The notes under the pieces were generated by a model. It made no database searches. It was not told where the DNA came from and worked only from the letters and a program-made list of their open reading frames with translations. From positions 1 through 32,605 of IMG/VR virus record IMGVR_UViG_3300036978_000177: 32,605 nucleotides of DNA. One strand, 5' to 3'. Both the position numbers and the translations under genes were made by a program. Source of the DNA: a virus. Every line of letters starts with the position of its first letter. The first letter of the stretch is position 1. Positions 17,834 through 29,750 of this stretch are shown here, piece after piece.

Positions 17834-17997
17834 TGGTTGTTGATGTGTTCAATGGTTTCTTGGATCTTGTTGAGTGCATTGTTGAGTTCATCGATGAGTG
17901 CCTCTTTATCAGCTTCATCGTTGCACTCAATTGCCTCCTCAAGATGTTGGATTGCTGAGAGGATCATGTCCTCAATTTTTCTTTGGTTTGCTGTCAT
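17830..17997 (-). CDS. Small acidic helical protein
   Basis: The product is 55 residues, nearly all helix, with an acidic amphipathic pattern (NQRKIEDMILSAIQHLEEAI, then DKEALIDELNNALNKIQETI). It may form a coiled coil or bind a partner of the replication complex. The stop overlaps the next start by ATGA. Its start codon overlaps the end of a 16 bp direct repeat, CAACACTACAAAAAAT on the minus strand, which also covers the last codons of the polymerase gene; see the repeat entries. Confidence 0.65.
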   Translation of the reverse strand: MTANQRKIEDMILSAIQHLEEAIECNDEADKEALIDELNNALNKIQETIEHINNQ

Positions 17998-18011
17998 TTT
18001 TTGTAGTGTTG
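17996..18011 (-). repeat. 16 bp direct repeat, downstream copy
   Basis: On the minus strand this reads CAACACTACAAAAAAT. The identical sequence lies at 18326-18341. The two copies flank the 97-residue gene. This copy ends in the AT of the start codon of the 55-residue gene. Confidence 0.9.
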
Positions 18012-18025
18012 TTATTAGTTAAACA

Positions 18026-18319
18026 TCATGGCAATTCAACAATCCATTTACCATCTTTCTTCTCGATCCATATTTTTATACGACCAAAACCATCGCTTTC
18101 ATATCTTTCTTGCACACCATCACAAAGGTAATCAGTTAATATTTTGAACAGTTCAAAATCTGGCACTTGCCATGTTGTTAATCCATTATATTCAAATGTT
18201 GCAAATATTTTGTTAGTAGTTTCTGGTGAATCAAATGACCCAAGATGAATACCCGTGAGGTAACCATAGAATTTTGATTCTTTAGTAATAAGTGGTGCTG
18301 TATTGTTTATTGGTGTCAT
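18026..18319 (-). CDS. AT-rich inserted gene of unknown function
   Basis: The product is 97 residues: MTPINNTAPLITKESKFYGY, then a beta/alpha mixture ending in IKIWIEKKDGKWIVELP. The composition is visibly richer in A and T than its neighbours, and it lacks the GATC and TGCCA words so common in this genome. It is flanked by a 16 bp direct repeat, and it interrupts what would otherwise be an ATGA-coupled run of genes. I recognise no family. The start at 18319 was chosen because it follows the leader directly; the open frame extends upstream into the polymerase gene in a different frame. A recently acquired accessory gene is the best reading. Confidence 0.7.
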   Translation of the reverse strand: MTPINNTAPLITKESKFYGYLTGIHLGSFDSPETTNKIFATFEYNGLTTWQVPDFELFKILTDYLCDGVQERYESDGFGRIKIWIEKKDGKWIVELP

Positions 18320-18323
18320 AGTA

Positions 18324-20528
18324 TTATTTTTTGTAGTGTTGAATTGTTGATCCTTCTGCTGCCAGTGGCAGACCTTCTGCCCATGCTGGCATGGTGCAAA
18401 GCAATTGGCAAAGTTCTTCGTGTGTCTGTCCTTCTTCCTGTGTGCAGAGAATCTCATCATGGACAAGCATAAAAGGTTTATATCCAGCACTCTCTGCTGC
18501 CAGCATACCTTCGCGCATGATGTCACCGGCACACGCTTGTGTGGCATTCTCCAGCAACTTGCCACCATACGTGTGGCACCATCCCCATGTGCCAGCACTG
18601 TTGGGGATCACTCCCCAGAAGCGGATCTGTGAAGTCCAGAACTTCGCACTGTTTGTGATGATCTCTGCCTTGGGGTAAATCAGATGATGACCAGATGGCA
18701 ACTTGATGCAGAGTGCTGTGAAGTTGGCAATGGTGCTGCACGACAGGGTGAGCTTGCCAACCTTGTGCTTTGTGTTGGGTGACTTGATCGCTGCCTTGGC
18801 TGCATCATCTAACTGCTTCCAACTTGCCACCACAACCGGGTTCTCTGATCTCCAACTGGTCACTGCTCGGTCAGCCAGATCATCAAAACAAAACTCAGAC
18901 CACTCTGCCTCGGTCTGTGGGTCCACTGTGGTCCATCCCATCTCCTTGGGATCCTTGCCATCGATGAAGTCTGCATGGCGGGGTTTGTAGTCAGCAATCA
19001 TCTGTGGGGTAGGTGCGAACCCATAGGACTCACAGGTGGCGCGGAACTTGGGTCTGCCCATGTTGTAGGAGCAACCCAGCACTGACTGCTTGCCAATGAA
19101 TCGTTCATCCTTGGTGATGTTGCTGACTGGTTTGCCAAAGATCAACGATGCCATGATCTCATAGATTGGCTCATTGTTTCTGAACTTCTGCAGGGTCTTT
19201 TCTTCACCCACCAACCATGGTGCCACTCTTGCCTCAATGGCTGCATAGTCTGCCTGTAGGACCATGCCAGTGCGCGGCTGGATGAAGTTACGGATCACAG
19301 AGATCATCACTTGGAACAGGTCACCAAAGAGTGCCTCCAACTCATCGATGGTGGCACCGGCACACACACAAGCATATGCCAGATCTGAGAATGCTATCGT
19401 GGGTCTGGCGTAGTTCTGCGGCTGGATCCCTTTGCCGGTCCACCGATGGGTGCGCTCGGCACCGTAGATCAATAGCGCACCTCGGACCTTGCCATCTGTG
19501 TCAGCCATGTTGAGCATGGCGGGGATCTTCTTTACAGCAGCAGATCCGATGAGTGAGTAGGTGGTCAGTGCTGCCACTGCCTCTGGTGTGAGTAGGTCCA
19601 CCAGTGGCGAGGTCAACCATGCACTCACGGTGTCTGCTTGCAGATCCTGACCTGTGAATCCTTTGCCCTTCAGCCAGCACTGCATCATCTCATTTTGTGA
19701 TGGGTTGAACCCAGCAGTGATGCTGACTTGCTTTGGTGCTTTTCTGAGCTTGGTCACCGGCAGGGTGATCATCTCGGTGGGGTGTGCCGTCTGTGATTGG
19801 AAAATTGGGATAAGTCTGCTGGTGTATTCACCAATGAGACTCTCAGCATGATGCAGTGCGTTCATCTTGAGTGGGATCCCACGGTCATTCATTCTCAGAT
19901 CTGCATGGAAGTGTGCAGCAGTAGGGTGTGACTGCTTTGTCAGACTGACCAGTGCATGATGCACCAATCTCTCTGCCTCGACATCGCGGCGGCAGTAGTC
20001 AACGAACATCTGAAAGTCGAGTAATGCGTCTGCTGGATAGATCCGTGTGCGAGAATCACCCTTGGTGGGTTTGCGAGGCACACAGAACTGCTGGATCAAC
20101 TTGGTGCCGTCTGTGCTTTTCGGCATTGGGATCTGTAGAAACTCACCAGCCTGTGCCAGTGATGATGGGATTGCTGCCAGACGGCACAGTGCTGCTGTGC
20201 ATCTCCACTGTGTGAGTGCCGGTGCTGTCATCAGTCCGTATTTCAAGAATGCTTTGTGAAACAAGTGCTTGGTGATGGCAAATTCAAATTGGGCATTGTG
20301 CGCCCATATCTCTGCACCACTCTGCACTGCCTGACTGAGCAGTGCCAGTGCATCGGTGTTGTTGTCCATGACTGACCACACCAGTGGTGCCTCATCATTC
20401 TTGGCAATCGCCATGACGAGGATCTCAGCATCATAGTGTGCTGCATATTTGAATGCACCAACATCTTTGAGACTTTCTGGTGAGAATGTCTCATAGTCGA
20501 GATGATAGGTGTCTGGTGTGGTGAGCAT
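18324..20528 (-). CDS. Family A DNA polymerase with 3'-5' exonuclease
   Basis: The product is 734 residues. The exonuclease domain shows ExoI (LDYETFS, Asp11 and Glu13), ExoII (WAHNAQFEFA, about 76-84) and ExoIII (YCRRDVEAE, Tyr178 and Asp182). The polymerase domain shows motif A (LQADYAAIEARV, Asp427), motif B (ERFIGKQSVLGCSYNMG, Lys480 and Tyr488) and motif C (LVHDEIL, His690-Asp691-Glu692). All key residues are present, so a replicative, proofreading polymerase is expected. No 5'-nuclease domain is visible. The stop TAA lies immediately after a stretch that is repeated 330 bases downstream. The gene begins 15 bases after the small coiled-coil gene. Confidence 0.95.
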   Translation of the reverse strand: MLTTPDTYHLDYETFSPESLKDVGAFKYAAHYDAEILVMAIAKNDEAPLVWSVMDNNTDALALLSQAVQSGAEIWAHNAQFEFAITKHLFHKAFLKYGLMTAPALTQWRCTAALCRLAAIPSSLAQAGEFLQIPMPKSTDGTKLIQQFCVPRKPTKGDSRTRIYPADALLDFQMFVDYCRRDVEAERLVHHALVSLTKQSHPTAAHFHADLRMNDRGIPLKMNALHHAESLIGEYTSRLIPIFQSQTAHPTEMITLPVTKLRKAPKQVSITAGFNPSQNEMMQCWLKGKGFTGQDLQADTVSAWLTSPLVDLLTPEAVAALTTYSLIGSAAVKKIPAMLNMADTDGKVRGALLIYGAERTHRWTGKGIQPQNYARPTIAFSDLAYACVCAGATIDELEALFGDLFQVMISVIRNFIQPRTGMVLQADYAAIEARVAPWLVGEEKTLQKFRNNEPIYEIMASLIFGKPVSNITKDERFIGKQSVLGCSYNMGRPKFRATCESYGFAPTPQMIADYKPRHADFIDGKDPKEMGWTTVDPQTEAEWSEFCFDDLADRAVTSWRSENPVVVASWKQLDDAAKAAIKSPNTKHKVGKLTLSCSTIANFTALCIKLPSGHHLIYPKAEIITNSAKFWTSQIRFWGVIPNSAGTWGWCHTYGGKLLENATQACAGDIMREGMLAAESAGYKPFMLVHDEILCTQEEGQTHEELCQLLCTMPAWAEGLPLAAEGSTIQHYKK
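18326..18341 (-). repeat. 16 bp direct repeat, upstream copy
   Basis: This copy of CAACACTACAAAAAAT (minus strand) encodes the end of the polymerase (Gln-His-Tyr-Lys-Lys) and the T of its TAA stop. The other copy is at 17996-18011. If the intervening 330 bases were lost by recombination, the polymerase would end in AAA-AAA-TGA and the TGA would overlap the ATG of the 55-residue gene, as other genes in this operon do. Confidence 0.9.
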
Positions 20529-20796: not shown

Positions 20797-21417
20797 TTAG
20801 AAGTTCTCAACCTCGATCTCCTCTTCTTCCATCTCCTCATCCTCGAATGCATCAACTGTTACTTTAGCAGCACCGAATGGTTCACCCTTCCGCAGATATT
20901 GGATTGCCTCAATGCTGGCAGAGATGCCCTTTTTGCCTTCATACTCGTAAGCAAAGATGTTGAGAATGGCATTGACGTAGTCACCATTGTTAGGCATCCC
21001 AGTTGATGCTGGCAGTGGTTGACGCTTCTGGTCCACAATCAACACACCGTTGGGTGCATCTGCCACCTTTGTCCCGGCACTGAAAAACATGGTGCTGGCA
21101 TCATATCCCTCGTAGTAGTCACCATCCTCGTTGACCTTAGGACCACGACTGCCAACTTGCTGGTCTGCTTTGCTGTATGCATACATCTCCAGCTTGCCGG
21201 GTGTTTTCCCCCACTTGTCTTTGCAGATGGCAGCAAGAATGACCTTTTCAAAGTCTGTGCTTGGCACACTGACTTTCTTCTCATCGATAGTTGCCTCAAC
21301 AGTAGAGTCAGCAGAGCAGATGCCGGTGAAGGTGTATTTTGGATCACCAGTCTTTGGGGTGTATGGTTTTCTCAAGTTGGAGAAACTGAGACGGACATTT
21401 TTGATTTTGACTTGCAT
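20797..21417 (-). CDS. DUF2815 ssDNA-binding protein
   Basis: The product is 206 residues. It starts MQVKIKNVRLSFSNLRKPYT and contains KVILAAICKDKWGKTPG, YYEGYDASTMFFSAGTKVAD, and NGDYVNAILNIFAYEYEGKK, all typical of the DUF2815 family found beside family A polymerases and DUF2800 nucleases in phages and related to the gp2.5-type OB-fold SSBs. The C-terminus is strongly acidic (DEEMEEEEIEVENF), as single-stranded DNA-binding proteins need for partner contacts. It lies downstream of a terminator repeat, so it may need a promoter of its own; the 21418-21470 leader has only weak candidates. Confidence 0.85.
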   Translation of the reverse strand: MQVKIKNVRLSFSNLRKPYTPKTGDPKYTFTGICSADSTVEATIDEKKVSVPSTDFEKVILAAICKDKWGKTPGKLEMYAYSKADQQVGSRGPKVNEDGDYYEGYDASTMFFSAGTKVADAPNGVLIVDQKRQPLPASTGMPNNGDYVNAILNIFAYEYEGKKGISASIEAIQYLRKGEPFGAAKVTVDAFEDEEMEEEEIEVENF

Positions 21418-21477
21418 ATGTTTGGTATGTTTAATTTTGGTTAATTTGACTGGGTGACAACGTGCCACCCTTCGCCC

Positions 21478-21508
21478 AGAAAACCCCACCCAATTCAATG
21501 GGTGAGGT
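21478..21508 (-). terminator. Intrinsic terminator, repeat copy 1
   Basis: On the minus strand ACCTCACCCA (21508-21499) pairs with TGGGTGGGGT (21492-21483), 10 base pairs with one wobble and a 6-base loop, followed by TTTCT. It lies 26 bases after the stop of the 114-residue gene. A 37-base sequence including this hairpin (21473-21509) is identical to one at 24235-24271. Confidence 0.8.
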
Positions 21509-24619: not shown

Positions 24620-26971
24620 CTAGAAAGGATCCATGCAGTCGTCAATTGTCACTTCTTCACCTTTTTTTGGCATGATCACCCAGTAAAACGCACCATTTTT
24701 CTTCTTCGGTGAGATCATCGATGACTCATCACCTGAGTAGATCACACGCTCAGAATGTGTTTTTGTTAGATGTTGGAGTTGTGAAATCAGCACCTTGGGT
24801 GATGGGCAGAATCTGCTGAACTGCATCTGTGAGTTGCGTGTGCCAACGTCACTCAGGATCTCAAACAAAGCACCCACCGTGCCGGTCCATGCTTCGGGCT
24901 TTTCATCCTCCTCAAACAACTGGCAGAACAGTCTGCCATGTGCAGCACCATCGATGCGCTCAATCAGTGAATGCTCTGGACTGCCCTCATTTATCAGATC
25001 CAGCACACTTGGGTTGTGATAGGACAAAGTGGGAAATCGTTTGGCAGGGTCAACGATGTGTGCGGGGATGATGAACTCCTCCAGCAAGAAGTGCAAGAAT
25101 GCTGGCAACTCACTCAGGATCTTCTGCTGTGTTGGTTCATACCACCCGGCAGTGGTATTGTCGATCAGACCACCAACCATGCTCTGTGCTTTGAGCAAGA
25201 TGATCTTGTCCTTGATGCCCTCGTTCATCTGCGGCAGAGTGCTGATCGATGAGTTCTCCATGTTCATCAGTCGCACAAATCTCCACCATGGTTTGACTGG
25301 GATCTTGTCGGCAAACTTCTGGTGATAGTCACCACCGGTGCCAACTGTGAGTGACTTGATCTGTTCGCCCAGTTTTGATCGGCTCTTGAAGTCTGGCAGC
25401 AGCACACTGGTGTCATCCAAGAACAGCAACTCACACTGGAACAGGTCAGAGTTGAATGCTGCACCATACTCTGAGAACATACTGTCGGCATTGGTGCTGC
25501 GTCCACCCAGTAGGTGTGGCAAGATGTTGTCGAGCAGCAGAGTCTTGCCACTGTTGACCTCACCCAAGATGTGCAAGAACTGACAAGGTGAGAACTTTGA
25601 TTGACGCTTGCCATCATTGCGAAATGCCTTGGCACTGGCACTGGTCCATCCGTAGAACACATCAAGTTGATGTGGTGAGTGGTCAAACATGTGTGTGAGT
25701 AGTTTTTTGATGGTCCCCCATTCACCCTTCCGTGGTTTGATCACTGTGGGTGAACGCATCACCAGATAGTCATATCCATTCTCTGAATGCACACCGGCAC
25801 ACCGTCCACTGGCACCTTGCATGATGGCATCAATTGGGTGGTGCATCTCCACTCCAGCGATGAAGGTGTCCACCGGTGACTGACCCTCACCAGTCATCTT
25901 GATGCCTCGCATCCCCACATCGATCAACTGCCTTGCCATCGATCTGCCAGACAGTGAGATCCACTTCCCACTGATCGACTCTGTGTAATACTTCCCACCA
26001 TGATAATAATACAGCACATCCTTGCAAGTGGTGATCGATGCCTCAAACCCAGCCACATCCCATTTGCCCTTGGCAATCGTCATTGGGTAGTTGTCACCCT
26101 TCGGATCAAAATAGACCACACGCTGGGCAGATCTGCCATCATCCGCTGCACTCACGTTGGGCATCCTTGCCACCTGTGAGCGCACTGCCATTTGTTTGTC
26201 TGCACCATATAGACAGGCAACGGTGAAGATGGCATCCACCTCTGCCAGTGATGCTTGTCGTGCGTCAAACCAAAAGTGCAAAGACTTGCCACCGGTGTCC
26301 ACCACCATCTTCAGAGGCACATACTTTGAGAGACTCATGGCAAAGGTGGAGAACTGCTGGACCACCTTGGCATCTGTGCTGTCCATCTCCAGCAGCATGT
26401 ATGGTCTGCTGGCTACATTGGCATTGCACCGGGTGCTGAGTTTCTGTCCACCGTTCTTCTGATCGCGGATCCATGCACCTTCTATTGATTTGAAGGTTGA
26501 CGGGTTGAGAAATTTGAATGCATCAAGTGCTGGGTGTGGGTAGAGGTTGACGATATCCTCGACCACCACCAAGGTGCCAGACTGTTTGCTGATTTCTTGG
26601 ATTCCTATGATCTCATCCTGTAGGAAAAGGTTTTTGATGATGCTGCTGGTCTTGATGCCAGTCCTGTGTGGCGATGCCTCCACAATGGTGGAGAGTGGTG
26701 TGCAGTTGAGCCGGTGCAGCAGCTTCTCATCTGCGTCTGGCATGGTCACCTTGTCATCATCATCTGGCACATCAGTGGACCAGATAAGGTCAACCACACG
26801 TTGTGTGGCTGTGTGGTGGTCTGGTCTGGTGGAGTCATAGATTGACCTCAGATGCTCAAGTGTTTCTTCTTTGGATGCACCAGCGTTCTGGCATCTACGT
26901 GCTGCGGCTGGTAGTCCAGCATTGTGTCCATCTCCTGCCGGTGGCAGAGTTATATTTTCGATTTTGCTCAT
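24620..26971 (-). CDS. Primase-helicase (AEP primase plus SF3 helicase)
   Basis: The product is 783 residues. An N-terminal helical region (about 15-65, AAARRCQNAGASKEETLEHL) is of the PriCT type. The middle has the archaeo-eukaryotic primase features LLEMDSTDA (Asp197) and VVDTGGKSLHFWFD (His232). The C-terminal part is a superfamily 3 helicase with Walker A HILGEVNSGKTLLL (470-477) and Walker B CELLFLDDTSV (515-520). Such proteins unwind and prime at a phage origin, so this is the most likely origin-recognition or origin-opening enzyme here. It is the first leftward gene after the large non-coding region with inverted repeats. A sigma-70-like promoter lies just upstream. Confidence 0.9.
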   Translation of the reverse strand: MSKIENITLPPAGDGHNAGLPAAARRCQNAGASKEETLEHLRSIYDSTRPDHHTATQRVVDLIWSTDVPDDDDKVTMPDADEKLLHRLNCTPLSTIVEASPHRTGIKTSSIIKNLFLQDEIIGIQEISKQSGTLVVVEDIVNLYPHPALDAFKFLNPSTFKSIEGAWIRDQKNGGQKLSTRCNANVASRPYMLLEMDSTDAKVVQQFSTFAMSLSKYVPLKMVVDTGGKSLHFWFDARQASLAEVDAIFTVACLYGADKQMAVRSQVARMPNVSAADDGRSAQRVVYFDPKGDNYPMTIAKGKWDVAGFEASITTCKDVLYYYHGGKYYTESISGKWISLSGRSMARQLIDVGMRGIKMTGEGQSPVDTFIAGVEMHHPIDAIMQGASGRCAGVHSENGYDYLVMRSPTVIKPRKGEWGTIKKLLTHMFDHSPHQLDVFYGWTSASAKAFRNDGKRQSKFSPCQFLHILGEVNSGKTLLLDNILPHLLGGRSTNADSMFSEYGAAFNSDLFQCELLFLDDTSVLLPDFKSRSKLGEQIKSLTVGTGGDYHQKFADKIPVKPWWRFVRLMNMENSSISTLPQMNEGIKDKIILLKAQSMVGGLIDNTTAGWYEPTQQKILSELPAFLHFLLEEFIIPAHIVDPAKRFPTLSYHNPSVLDLINEGSPEHSLIERIDGAAHGRLFCQLFEEDEKPEAWTGTVGALFEILSDVGTRNSQMQFSRFCPSPKVLISQLQHLTKTHSERVIYSGDESSMISPKKKNGAFYWVIMPKKGEEVTIDDCMDPF

Positions 26972-26996
26972 GGTTGGTTGTGGTTGAGATGCGGAG

Positions 26997-27023
26997 ATTG
27001 TACTGAGAAGTATGAGTTGTCAA
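26997..27023 (-). promoter_or_regulatory. Candidate early leftward promoter
   Basis: On the minus strand TTGACA (27023-27018) and TACAAT (27002-26997) are separated by 15 bases, a perfect -35 and a good -10 with a slightly short spacer. It lies 26 bases before the start codon of the primase-helicase gene and would drive the whole leftward operon. Confidence 0.55.
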
Positions 27024-27189
27024 AACTATTTTTTGCCTTTTTTAGCCACCTCGGCAGGTCATTTCTAACACTGATTTTGGATCGAGTGAACAAAATTCTG
27101 AGGTGGTGGTCAGAATGATTTGAGAGGATTATCTGCGAGGATTCATGCAGATGAGTGCAAAAAGGTGATTTGCAGAGATTTGTGCAGAT

Positions 27190-27240
27190 AAACAGCACCC
27201 GAAAAAAGTTGTGTTGCATGATTTGTGTTTCGTGCTGTTT
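27190..27240. repeat. 9 bp inverted repeat
   Basis: AAACAGCAC (27190-27198) and GTGCTGTTT (27232-27240) are perfect complements 33 bases apart. Around it the words TGCAGA and TGCAAA occur several times (27120-27190). It lies between the leftward promoter and the large nested repeat and may belong to the same control or origin region. Confidence 0.45.
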
Positions 27241-27271
27241 TTTGCACAAATAAGAGAGAAACCTATATGTG

Positions 27272-27572
27272 CCAATGGTTTTTTCTTAGGGCAGCAAAAT
27301 ATGCCTGCCCTACCCACTGCCCCCCAAAAAGCCATTGGTGCATATGGGTTTGCGGGGATTTAGGGCAGAGGGCAGTGATTTGTACTTCTATTAGTGGAGG
27401 GTAAAAATATAGTATATATTGGGTTTTTTCATGTGTTCTTCATGTTATCTCTTTATATATGGGTACAGAAGTGCTGCCCTCTGCCCTTTTCTGTTAGATT
27501 TGGCAAAATTGCTATACATACCAATGACTTTTTGAAGGGCAGTGGGTAGGGCAGTGAAAATTCCACTGCCCT
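27272..27572. repeat. Nested inverted repeats, candidate replication origin
   Basis: CTGCCCTACCCACTGCCC (27305-27322) returns as a perfect complement at 27537-27554; with its flank the arms are 34 bp (27305-27338 against 27521-27554, 31 matches). Inside are a 14 bp perfect pair (27362-27375 with 27474-27487) and a 6 bp pair (27384-27389 with 27467-27472), and at the ends two local hairpins (27287-27312 and 27548-27572). The unit GGGCAG/CTGCCC occurs ten times, five in each orientation, in doublets spaced 7 or 12 bp. The centre (about 27,390-27,460) is AT-rich with TATATATT. No gene is present. The layout resembles an origin with protein-binding iterons and an unwinding region, next to the primase-helicase gene. 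Confidence 0.7.
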
Positions 27573-27786
27573 TTAGATATCTTAACTAATTTTTGACCAT
27601 CTAACGGAAAATTTGAGGTGCAATGCTGGCACCGGACCAGTGGCAGAAATATACAAATTAGTGCAGAAAAAGATTGCACTTTTGTCAAAACTGATCCACT
27701 CTCACCGCAGCACCACTGTGTGACCAGACTCAAATAATTTTGGGTTGAATGGTTGAGATCTGGCACACAGGGGGCAAAAATAAAAA
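27573..27786. other. Non-coding stretch before the regulator
   Basis: No credible gene is seen here. A small hairpin, AGTGCA (27660-27665) with TGCACT (27675-27680) followed by TTTTG, could be a weak rightward terminator. The rest is A/T-rich sequence without clear repeats. Confidence 0.4.
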
Positions 27787-27815
27787 TTGACAATGTGGGA
27801 AAATTAAGATAATAC
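27787..27815 (+). promoter_or_regulatory. Sigma-70-type promoter of the regulator gene
   Basis: TTGACA (27787-27792) and TAATAC (27810-27815) are 17 bases apart, a near-consensus promoter. The start codon of the regulator gene is at 27823, only 7 bases after the -10 box, so transcription is expected to begin at or next to the A of ATG and give a leaderless message. Confidence 0.75.
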
Positions 27816-27822
27816 CACACCC

Positions 27823-28055
27823 ATGGACAGATCCATTGATCACATCGCCAAACTTGAGGTTGGCATGAAAGAGGCAAGAGTGCTGGCAAGGGTCAGTGGC
27901 ATCTCTGCAAGGGCGATTGCTCAAGATATGAATGACACCAGAGTCAATGTGACCAACTCACTCTATGTCCTATCTCTGAAAGGTTTTGTGGTGGCTGATA
28001 GGTCCACAGCACCTGCACGATATATTCTCACACCACTTGGCAAGGAGGCACAGAG

Positions 28056-28068
<13 letters not shown>
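27823..28068 (+). CDS. Winged-helix DNA-binding regulator
   Basis: The product is 81 residues. After an N-terminal helix it has VLARVSGISARAIAQDMNDT and RVNVTNSLYVLSLKGFVVAD, followed by a wing RSTAPARYILTPLGKEAQRC, a MarR-like winged helix-turn-helix of minimal size. It is the first rightward gene after the origin-like region and lies under a strong promoter. It could regulate the switch to the late genes or bind the GGGCAG sites; both are inference. It overlaps the MuF gene by 13 bases. The AAGGAGG seven bases before the MuF start lies inside this coding sequence. Confidence 0.8.

Positions 28069-29734
<1,666 letters not shown>

Positions 29735-29750
<16 letters not shown>

Follow-up and report, generated by a model that had tools for sequence, protein, structure and literature searches.

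We analysed a 32,605-nucleotide stretch of DNA from a virus (IMG/VR virus record IMGVR_UViG_3300036978_000177, positions 1 to 32,605; called here the window), in which ten copies of the hexamer GGGCAG, or of its complement CTGCCC, are arrayed in a non-coding gap beside a primase-helicase gene. This array is probably the replication origin of the phage, of a bilateral-iteron type in which the winged helices of the primase-helicase would read the hexamers. An origin had been proposed in a first-pass annotation made from the letters of the window, and it is the best-supported reading of the element. Because the ends of the window overlap by 134 bp with one mismatch, the phage genome is circular and about 32.47 kb long. 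On one side of the gap are the replication genes, which run leftward, and on the other the winged-helix gene, the terminase genes terS and terL (products TerS and TerL) and the virion genes, which run rightward, as the first-pass annotation had described in placing the element at the divergence point beside the primase-helicase gene. The gap is the largest non-coding stretch in the window, and not the only large one as had been stated, since a second of about 490 bp lies at 17,834-18,323; over a length of 98 bp, the highest AT content of the genome is reached within this second stretch, at 18,124.

24,620-26,971, minus strand: primase-helicase gene, 783 aa, proposed hexamer reader
26,972-27,822, no strand: divergent non-coding gap of 851 bp, with the primase-helicase gene on one side and the late-side winged-helix gene on the other

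The array itself is composed of the following elements.

27,289-27,322: left outer triplet, GGGCAG-N10-CTGCCC-N6-CTGCCC (sites 27,289 plus, 27,305 minus, 27,317 minus), invariant in five relatives
27,363-27,375, plus strand: left inner doublet GGGCAGaGGGCAG (sites 27,363 and 27,370), with TTAGGGCAGAGGGCAG invariant in five relatives
27,376-27,473, no strand: AT-rich core of 98 bp, 70% AT, proposed unwinding element
27,474-27,486, minus strand: right inner doublet CTGCCCtCTGCCC (sites 27,474 and 27,481), facing the left doublet, with CTGCCCTCTGCCCTTT invariant
27,493-27,498, plus strand: GTTAGA beside the right inner doublet, invariant in five relatives and, by eye, in the same place in the more distant relative L043
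27,537-27,571: right outer triplet, GGGCAG-N6-GGGCAG-N11-CTGCCC (sites 27,537 plus, 27,549 plus, 27,566 minus)

Read from left to right, a triplet in the orientations plus, minus, minus (spacings 16 and 12) is followed after 46 bp by a doublet of two plus sites (spacing 7), the core, a doublet of two minus sites (spacing 7) and, after 56 bp, a triplet in the orientations plus, plus, minus (spacings 12 and 17). The count given in the first-pass annotation, ten sites with five in each orientation, is confirmed, and all of them fall within 283 bp where 0.18 would be expected (local Poisson probability about 7e-15), with 26 matches against 20.4 expected in the whole window. In Markov simulations of the gap, neither ten copies nor facing doublets of GGGCAG were obtained (0/1000 for each). 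Facing doublets of any hexamer appeared in about 0.5-1.5% of simulated genomes (3/200), never with more than four copies. A scan for hexamer density found 11 copies of some word in one of 60 simulated genomes, so that a high density of some arbitrary word, taken alone, counts for less as evidence than the geometry does. The AT-rich centre announced by the first-pass annotation corresponds to the 98-bp core, whose 70% AT comes near the highest values reached over 98 bp anywhere in the genome (72%). The window yielded no further array, and a search of Rfam gave no match.

To evaluate the constraint acting on the hexamers, the gap was aligned over its whole length with those of four close relatives, the IMG/VR contigs L003, L005, L004 and L007, whose primases are respectively 98, 96, 88 and 79% identical to that of the window. 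In all four, the array is at the same place as in the window and its spacings are kept. The hexamer bases are identical to those of the window at 60/60 positions in L003, L005 and L004 and at 59/60 in L007, whereas identity falls to 98, 90, 71 and 53% in the rest of the element and to 94, 87, 53 and 24% in the flanks of the gap (L003, L005, L004 and L007, respectively). The difference between hexamers and the rest of the element gives Fisher probabilities of 1.5e-8 for L004 and 2.8e-13 for L007, sites in one alignment being partly dependent. The hexamers are thus under purifying selection in the close relatives. This selection bears on the idea that the array is a low-complexity tandem repeat or a mobile element without phage function. 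Repeats of GGGCAGT-type heptamers or octamers in five other contigs (L008, L040-L042 and L062) do imitate the doublets. Each doublet of the window, however, has just two copies at fixed spacings, flanks an AT-rich core and occurs at the same position in relatives; the absence of a second array from the window also speaks against the mobile element that the first-pass annotation had kept as an alternative. We consider this explanation the least probable of all. The five contigs were themselves rejected as relatives of the array, as they carry tandem repeats of GGGCAG-containing units without the core, the spacing or the companion genes.

More distant relatives were obtained in two ways. A scan for the outer-triplet pattern on DNA alone, combined with a filter on site density, yielded L033 and L017, most of the pattern matches being isolated; a search with the primase alignment yielded L043-L050, among which L044 ends before the gap. 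The array layout is present in relatives whose primase-helicase is only 37-54% identical to that of the window. L033 (40% identical) has a dense GGGCAG array and L050 (38% identical) has 12 GGGCAG sites. In L043 (54% identical) the word is GGGYAK, and AAGGGTATTAGGGCAG/CTGCCCTAATACCCTT form a facing pair that is perfect; in L045, L046, L049 and L047 the word is GGGGAG. The primases of L043 and L045-L047 are 39-54% identical to that of the window. Strict facing doublets over an AT-rich core are found in the window family, L033, L050, L043 and L017, with core lengths in the relatives of 58-136. The outer triplet with spacings of 17 and 12 is present in L045 and L017; L045 keeps it together with direct doublets that do not face each other, and in L047 the facing repeats overlap. 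The word is therefore switched while the geometry is largely kept. It should be noted that the motifs of L043, L045 and L047 were picked after viewing the sequences, so that their nulls of 0/1000 overstate significance. The distances between outer and inner sites fall into groups at 45-46, 56-57 and 68 bp, which are separated by about one helical turn; this grouping is post hoc, partly reflects shared ancestry and excludes the outliers of 62 and 65 bp in L045 and L033. The first-pass annotation had held that relatives keeping the replication genes and lacking the repeats would speak against an origin; the array is present in the relatives that have retained these genes, some of which use another hexamer.

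Both contigs found by the pattern scan, L033 and L017, carry DUF5906, as against 0/25 of the other contigs from the scans, many of which are short fragments that make this a soft control. In L017 it belongs to an AEP-like protein that is missed by the profile of the window primase family; this protein is consequently a separate and remote primase lineage, and the GGGCAG array of L017 may be convergent. By eye, a short open reading frame beside the array of L033 (L033:6724-7054) resembles a lone N-terminal mismatch-recognition domain of MutS (MMKQYETLRSALPEKYILFFRLGDFYEMFFEE...).

The window array also contains inverted repeats, as follows.

27,305-27,554 (arms 27,305-27,339 and 27,520-27,554), no strand: 35-nt inverted repeat, 91% complementary, with five pairs changed on both sides
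27,362-27,375 and 27,474-27,487 (arms): 14-nt inverted repeat, 100% complementary
27,259-27,351 (arms 27,259-27,284 and 27,326-27,351), no strand: 26-nt inverted repeat, 85% complementary, bracketing the left triplet, with CCAATGG/CCATTGG inside; less well conserved

The nested palindrome of the first-pass annotation thus stands as to its inverted arms and to the long and 14-nt repeats. A single shared centre does not, the outer sites being centred at about 27,430 and the inner doublets at 27,424.5, and the 26-bp repeat around the left triplet was missing from its list. These arms raise the question of whether a cruciform, or a single-strand hairpin of the pRN1 type, is the working form of the element, the hexamers being conserved as parts of its stem. 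Single-strand folding gives -68.4 kcal/mol (z -7.4) and five pairs of the outer arms have changed on both sides, as would suit a stem. Nevertheless, most hexamer pairs never vary and are uninformative on pairing, the parts of the long arms that do vary lose it, and the mirror symmetry of the outer arms is lost in distant relatives: in L050 the left triplet (minus, minus, minus) does not mirror the right one (plus, minus, minus), which prevents the long arms from forming. The family as a whole shares the orientation and the distance of the sites, and a cruciform, suggested in the first-pass annotation, is very unlikely to be the working form. A 26-bp inverted repeat (GGAACCCTTGAAGAATAAGGGATTGC) surrounds the left CTGCCC triplet of L050 (L050:3265-3355); it resembles the bracketing repeat of the window, with an unrelated sequence.

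We then considered which genes accompany the array. The features of the window concerned, besides the primase-helicase gene, are these.

18,324-20,528, minus strand: family A DNA polymerase (PolA), replication module, travels together with the array
20,797-21,498, minus strand: Enc34-type single-stranded DNA-binding protein (SSB), in the replication module of PolA
27,787-27,792, plus strand: TTGACA, likely the -35 element of the promoter of the winged-helix gene at 27,823, invariant in five relatives and about 215 bp outside the array

L033 shares with the window the primase, PolA (41% identity), SSB and DUF2800, and L050 shares PolA (51%), SSB and DUF2800. By contrast, no TerL, portal or capsid protein matching those of the window was detected by tblastn at E 1e-3 in the L033 and L050 stretches compared. 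Since the packaging genes, the DNA-binding part of TerS and the 81-aa winged-helix gene at 27,823 vary while the array stays, the replication module is its constant companion: the array travels with replication genes and not with packaging genes.

This association weighs on a second explanation, in which the array is a packaging site (pac/cos) that TerS binds and at which TerL cuts. In the genomes with context, the array does lie 0.25-2.3 kb from terS, within the gap that borders the early genes towards terS. In L007, however, 9/10 hexamers and their spacings are kept although the DNA-binding part of TerS is unrelated to that of the window, only a C-terminal tail of 40 residues matching, and in L003 the element is 98% identical whereas TerS is 73% identical with changes in the helix-turn-helix region, the neighbours being at 97-99%. 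The layout is moreover kept in L033 and L050, where the TerL search cited above found no relative of the window protein. With TerS swapped while the array is kept, TerS binding and packaging, both raised by the first-pass annotation, are disfavoured, and we regard a packaging site as unlikely. TerS (L003:6317-6847 and L007:12075-12500) appears to evolve by replacement of its DNA-binding part, in a neighbourhood of L003 that is otherwise 97-99% conserved, which suggests that packaging specificity is swapped as a module.

The same comparison applies to an operator array, through which a phage regulator such as the 81-aa winged-helix protein would control divergent early and late promoters. Its location in a divergent gap and its multiple short sites, typical of cooperative regulators, are in keeping with this role. 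The 81-aa gene is nonetheless confined to the close family, being absent from L033, L043, L050 and L045, all of which keep the layout; a promoter scan finds no promoter-like site inside the array, about 215 bp separate the array from the conserved TTGACA, and an operator would not be expected to have facing doublets around an AT-rich core whose length varies. We consider a purely regulatory array about as improbable as a packaging site, and the array may have a mixed role as origin and regulator.

If the array is an origin, the primase-helicase is a better candidate for its reader than the winged-helix protein at 27,823, which the first-pass annotation had listed among the possible binders and which is absent from the distant relatives. 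The primase-helicase is predicted to combine an AEP primase, an SF3 helicase and a C-terminal winged helix. DUF5906, of SF3 type, is detected above the cut-off at residues 470-571 and occurs in the window and in relatives. An AEP primase fold is modelled at about residues 105-310, the nearest folds to residues 105-314 being RepB' (Z 8.1) and the S-2L PrimPol (Z 8.0); conserved LLEMD and KSLHFWF motifs are present, and Pfam gave no primase match. When the last 144 residues were modelled alone, a helix-helix-helix-wing was obtained with a pLDDT near 90 in its core. The folds nearest to this predicted winged helix (about residues 690-770) are mostly winged helices, including Cdt1, subunits of ORC and plasmid initiators (Z 5-6.5); Foldseek returned nothing under E 0.001 with this model, and the winged helix is a common fold whose match alone proves no function. 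As for sequence searches, tblastn of INPHARED with the window and L033 primases found no match, the genome contigs searched with the primase alignment gave none either, and PDB searches with the primase gave chance-level matches only, as did blastn of the gap against phages.

In the mechanism that we propose, GGGCAG would be an iteron, and monomers of the primase-helicase would bind single hexamers through the C-terminal winged helix. The inner direct doublets, pointing at each other over the AT-rich core, would place two SF3 rings in opposite orientations. The outer triplets, several helical turns away and at a fixed phase, could anchor additional molecules on one face of the DNA and constrain it. 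ATP-driven strain would then melt the core, and the SF3 rings would load and move apart; priming would fall to the AEP domain, and extension to PolA and SSB.

Several observations weigh against this interpretation. The array is always in the interval that separates the early genes from the terS side, a position that alone cannot separate replication, packaging and transcription control, and its distance to the primase gene reaches 3.4 kb in L050 and 9 kb in L017. L045 and L047 carry the words and yet fail the strict facing-doublet test. Most of the distant relatives were selected by their primase, whose presence in them is by construction, and a prospective scan for doublets with N2-3 spacing yielded only one contig, a tandem repeat without a primase gene. 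On the protein side, the full-length model is weak (pLDDT 55) with a low-confidence helicase part, and the structure matches are at a level where common folds also score. Finally, the GC skew of the circularised genome, which the first-pass annotation had proposed to examine for a turn at 27.4 kb, gives weak support: its detrended cumulative minimum is at 26,486, 0.9 kb from the centre, and the skew at third codon positions is without clear strand bias.

The element would work as an iteron origin resembling those of P4 and of phage-inducible chromosomal islands (PICIs). The iterons of PICI origins with pri-rep initiators have been given element by element, and this origin design was described as exclusive to PICIs (PMC6092414). 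As in PICIs, the initiator with an SF3 helicase, here the proposed one with DUF5906, is encoded by the same element. The window array differs in being upstream of the initiator gene, in the divergent gap, whereas the PICI origin is immediately 3' of it; it occurs in phages that encode PolA, SSB and virion proteins of their own, has additional outer inverted triplets, and goes with a primase of AEP type. The upstream position, the outer triplets and the carriage by a phage are the reasons for which we do not classify it as a PICI origin.

P4 alpha and ORF904 of pRN1 both carry a winged helix, with which P4 alpha binds its origin repeats (PMC4234260). With the P4 ori and crr, the array shares short repeats in both orientations and a multidomain primase-SF3 helicase, in which a winged helix is predicted for the window; the annotated site order of crr is two plus sites followed by two minus sites and a plus site. 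The P4 repeat, however, is of an 8-bp type 1 (GGTGAACA-like), ori and crr are separate and the primase is of Toprim type, and no such type 1 repeats with a separate crr region were found in the window. AEP-SF3-winged-helix proteins, namely pRN1 ORF904 and BIP-1, were proposed to recognise stem-loops (PMC4234260). ORF904 unites an AEP primase, an SF3 helicase and a C-terminal winged helix, as is predicted for the window protein, but the pRN1 origin consists of a 100-bp stem-loop and has no iterons. The lineage of the window shows, in contrast to that proposal, an iteron array, and its long arms are lost in distant relatives.

The SV40 origin combines an SF3 helicase, the T-antigen, with facing pairs of short direct sites and an AT-rich melting region, on which a double hexamer is loaded. 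The likeness of the array to it is an analogy only, in the SF3 helicase, the facing direct site pairs and the AT-rich core; SV40 has closely packed GAGGC pentamers and a T-antigen without a primase.

Among cultured phages, the same layout is seen in Alteromonas phage R9Y2 with another word, TGTAAC, which occurs nine times and forms doublets that face each other over a 97-bp core of 73% AT. This array lies upstream of a Prim-Pol/PriCT_2/D5_N/DUF5906 gene, in the interval that separates this gene from the terS side. The gap of R9Y1 differs from that of R9Y2 at 14/425 positions, none of them in a TGTAAC site, a result expected by chance often enough to have no evidence value. In the paper on R9Y1 and R9Y2 (PMC9430817), a search by terms for origin, replication and packaging found no mapped origin. 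The facing-doublet scan found nothing in P4, in the MG592416 and OM373558 stretches or in MW202577, and gave a weak match with a GC-rich core in MF580955. In MW202577 (L058:13435-13901), TGACGGATA-like repeats that the hexamer scan missed are seen by eye on either side of an AT-rich region, which has an SF3 helicase gene and terS as its neighbours.

Two further regions of the window deserve mention. Upstream of the primase gene, positions 27,131-27,191 contain two dyads of about 22 bp, of the ATTTGCAGAGATTTGTGCAGAT type, with similar ones in L004 and L007; they may represent another class of sites, or else an operator. In the 564-aa gene at 28,056-29,750, the first 292 or so residues are kept in relatives and the C-terminal half is not; this half has PVPVARP repeats and an HEIGH motif (zinc-peptidase-like, with a weak LPD1 match), and in L007 a ParB-like/methylase-like open reading frame follows at this position.

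In the part of the literature that was searched, no description of the GGGCAG element was found. To our knowledge, the replication origins of most phages are not known. The words GGGCAG, GGGYAK, GGGGAG and TGTAAC might belong to a widespread and undescribed class of phage origins, with a conserved geometry, in which direct doublets face each other over an AT-rich core and the outer sites are helically phased, and a replaceable word that changes with its AEP/SF3 winged-helix reader, an idea to which we give somewhat less than an even chance. If such a class exists, the PICI-type organisation, stated to be private to PICIs, would extend to phages, and phage origins would become predictable from sequence. 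If the origin reading is true, a rule of geometry first and word second would find the origins of phages that encode AEP/SF3 primase-helicases; one of these is the cultured R9Y2, which offers a test system for the array layout. The natural series of reader-word pairs would further allow one to ask how an initiator changes its site without losing its origin, and the origin reading also bears on whether this design passed from phages to the PICI satellites or in the other direction.
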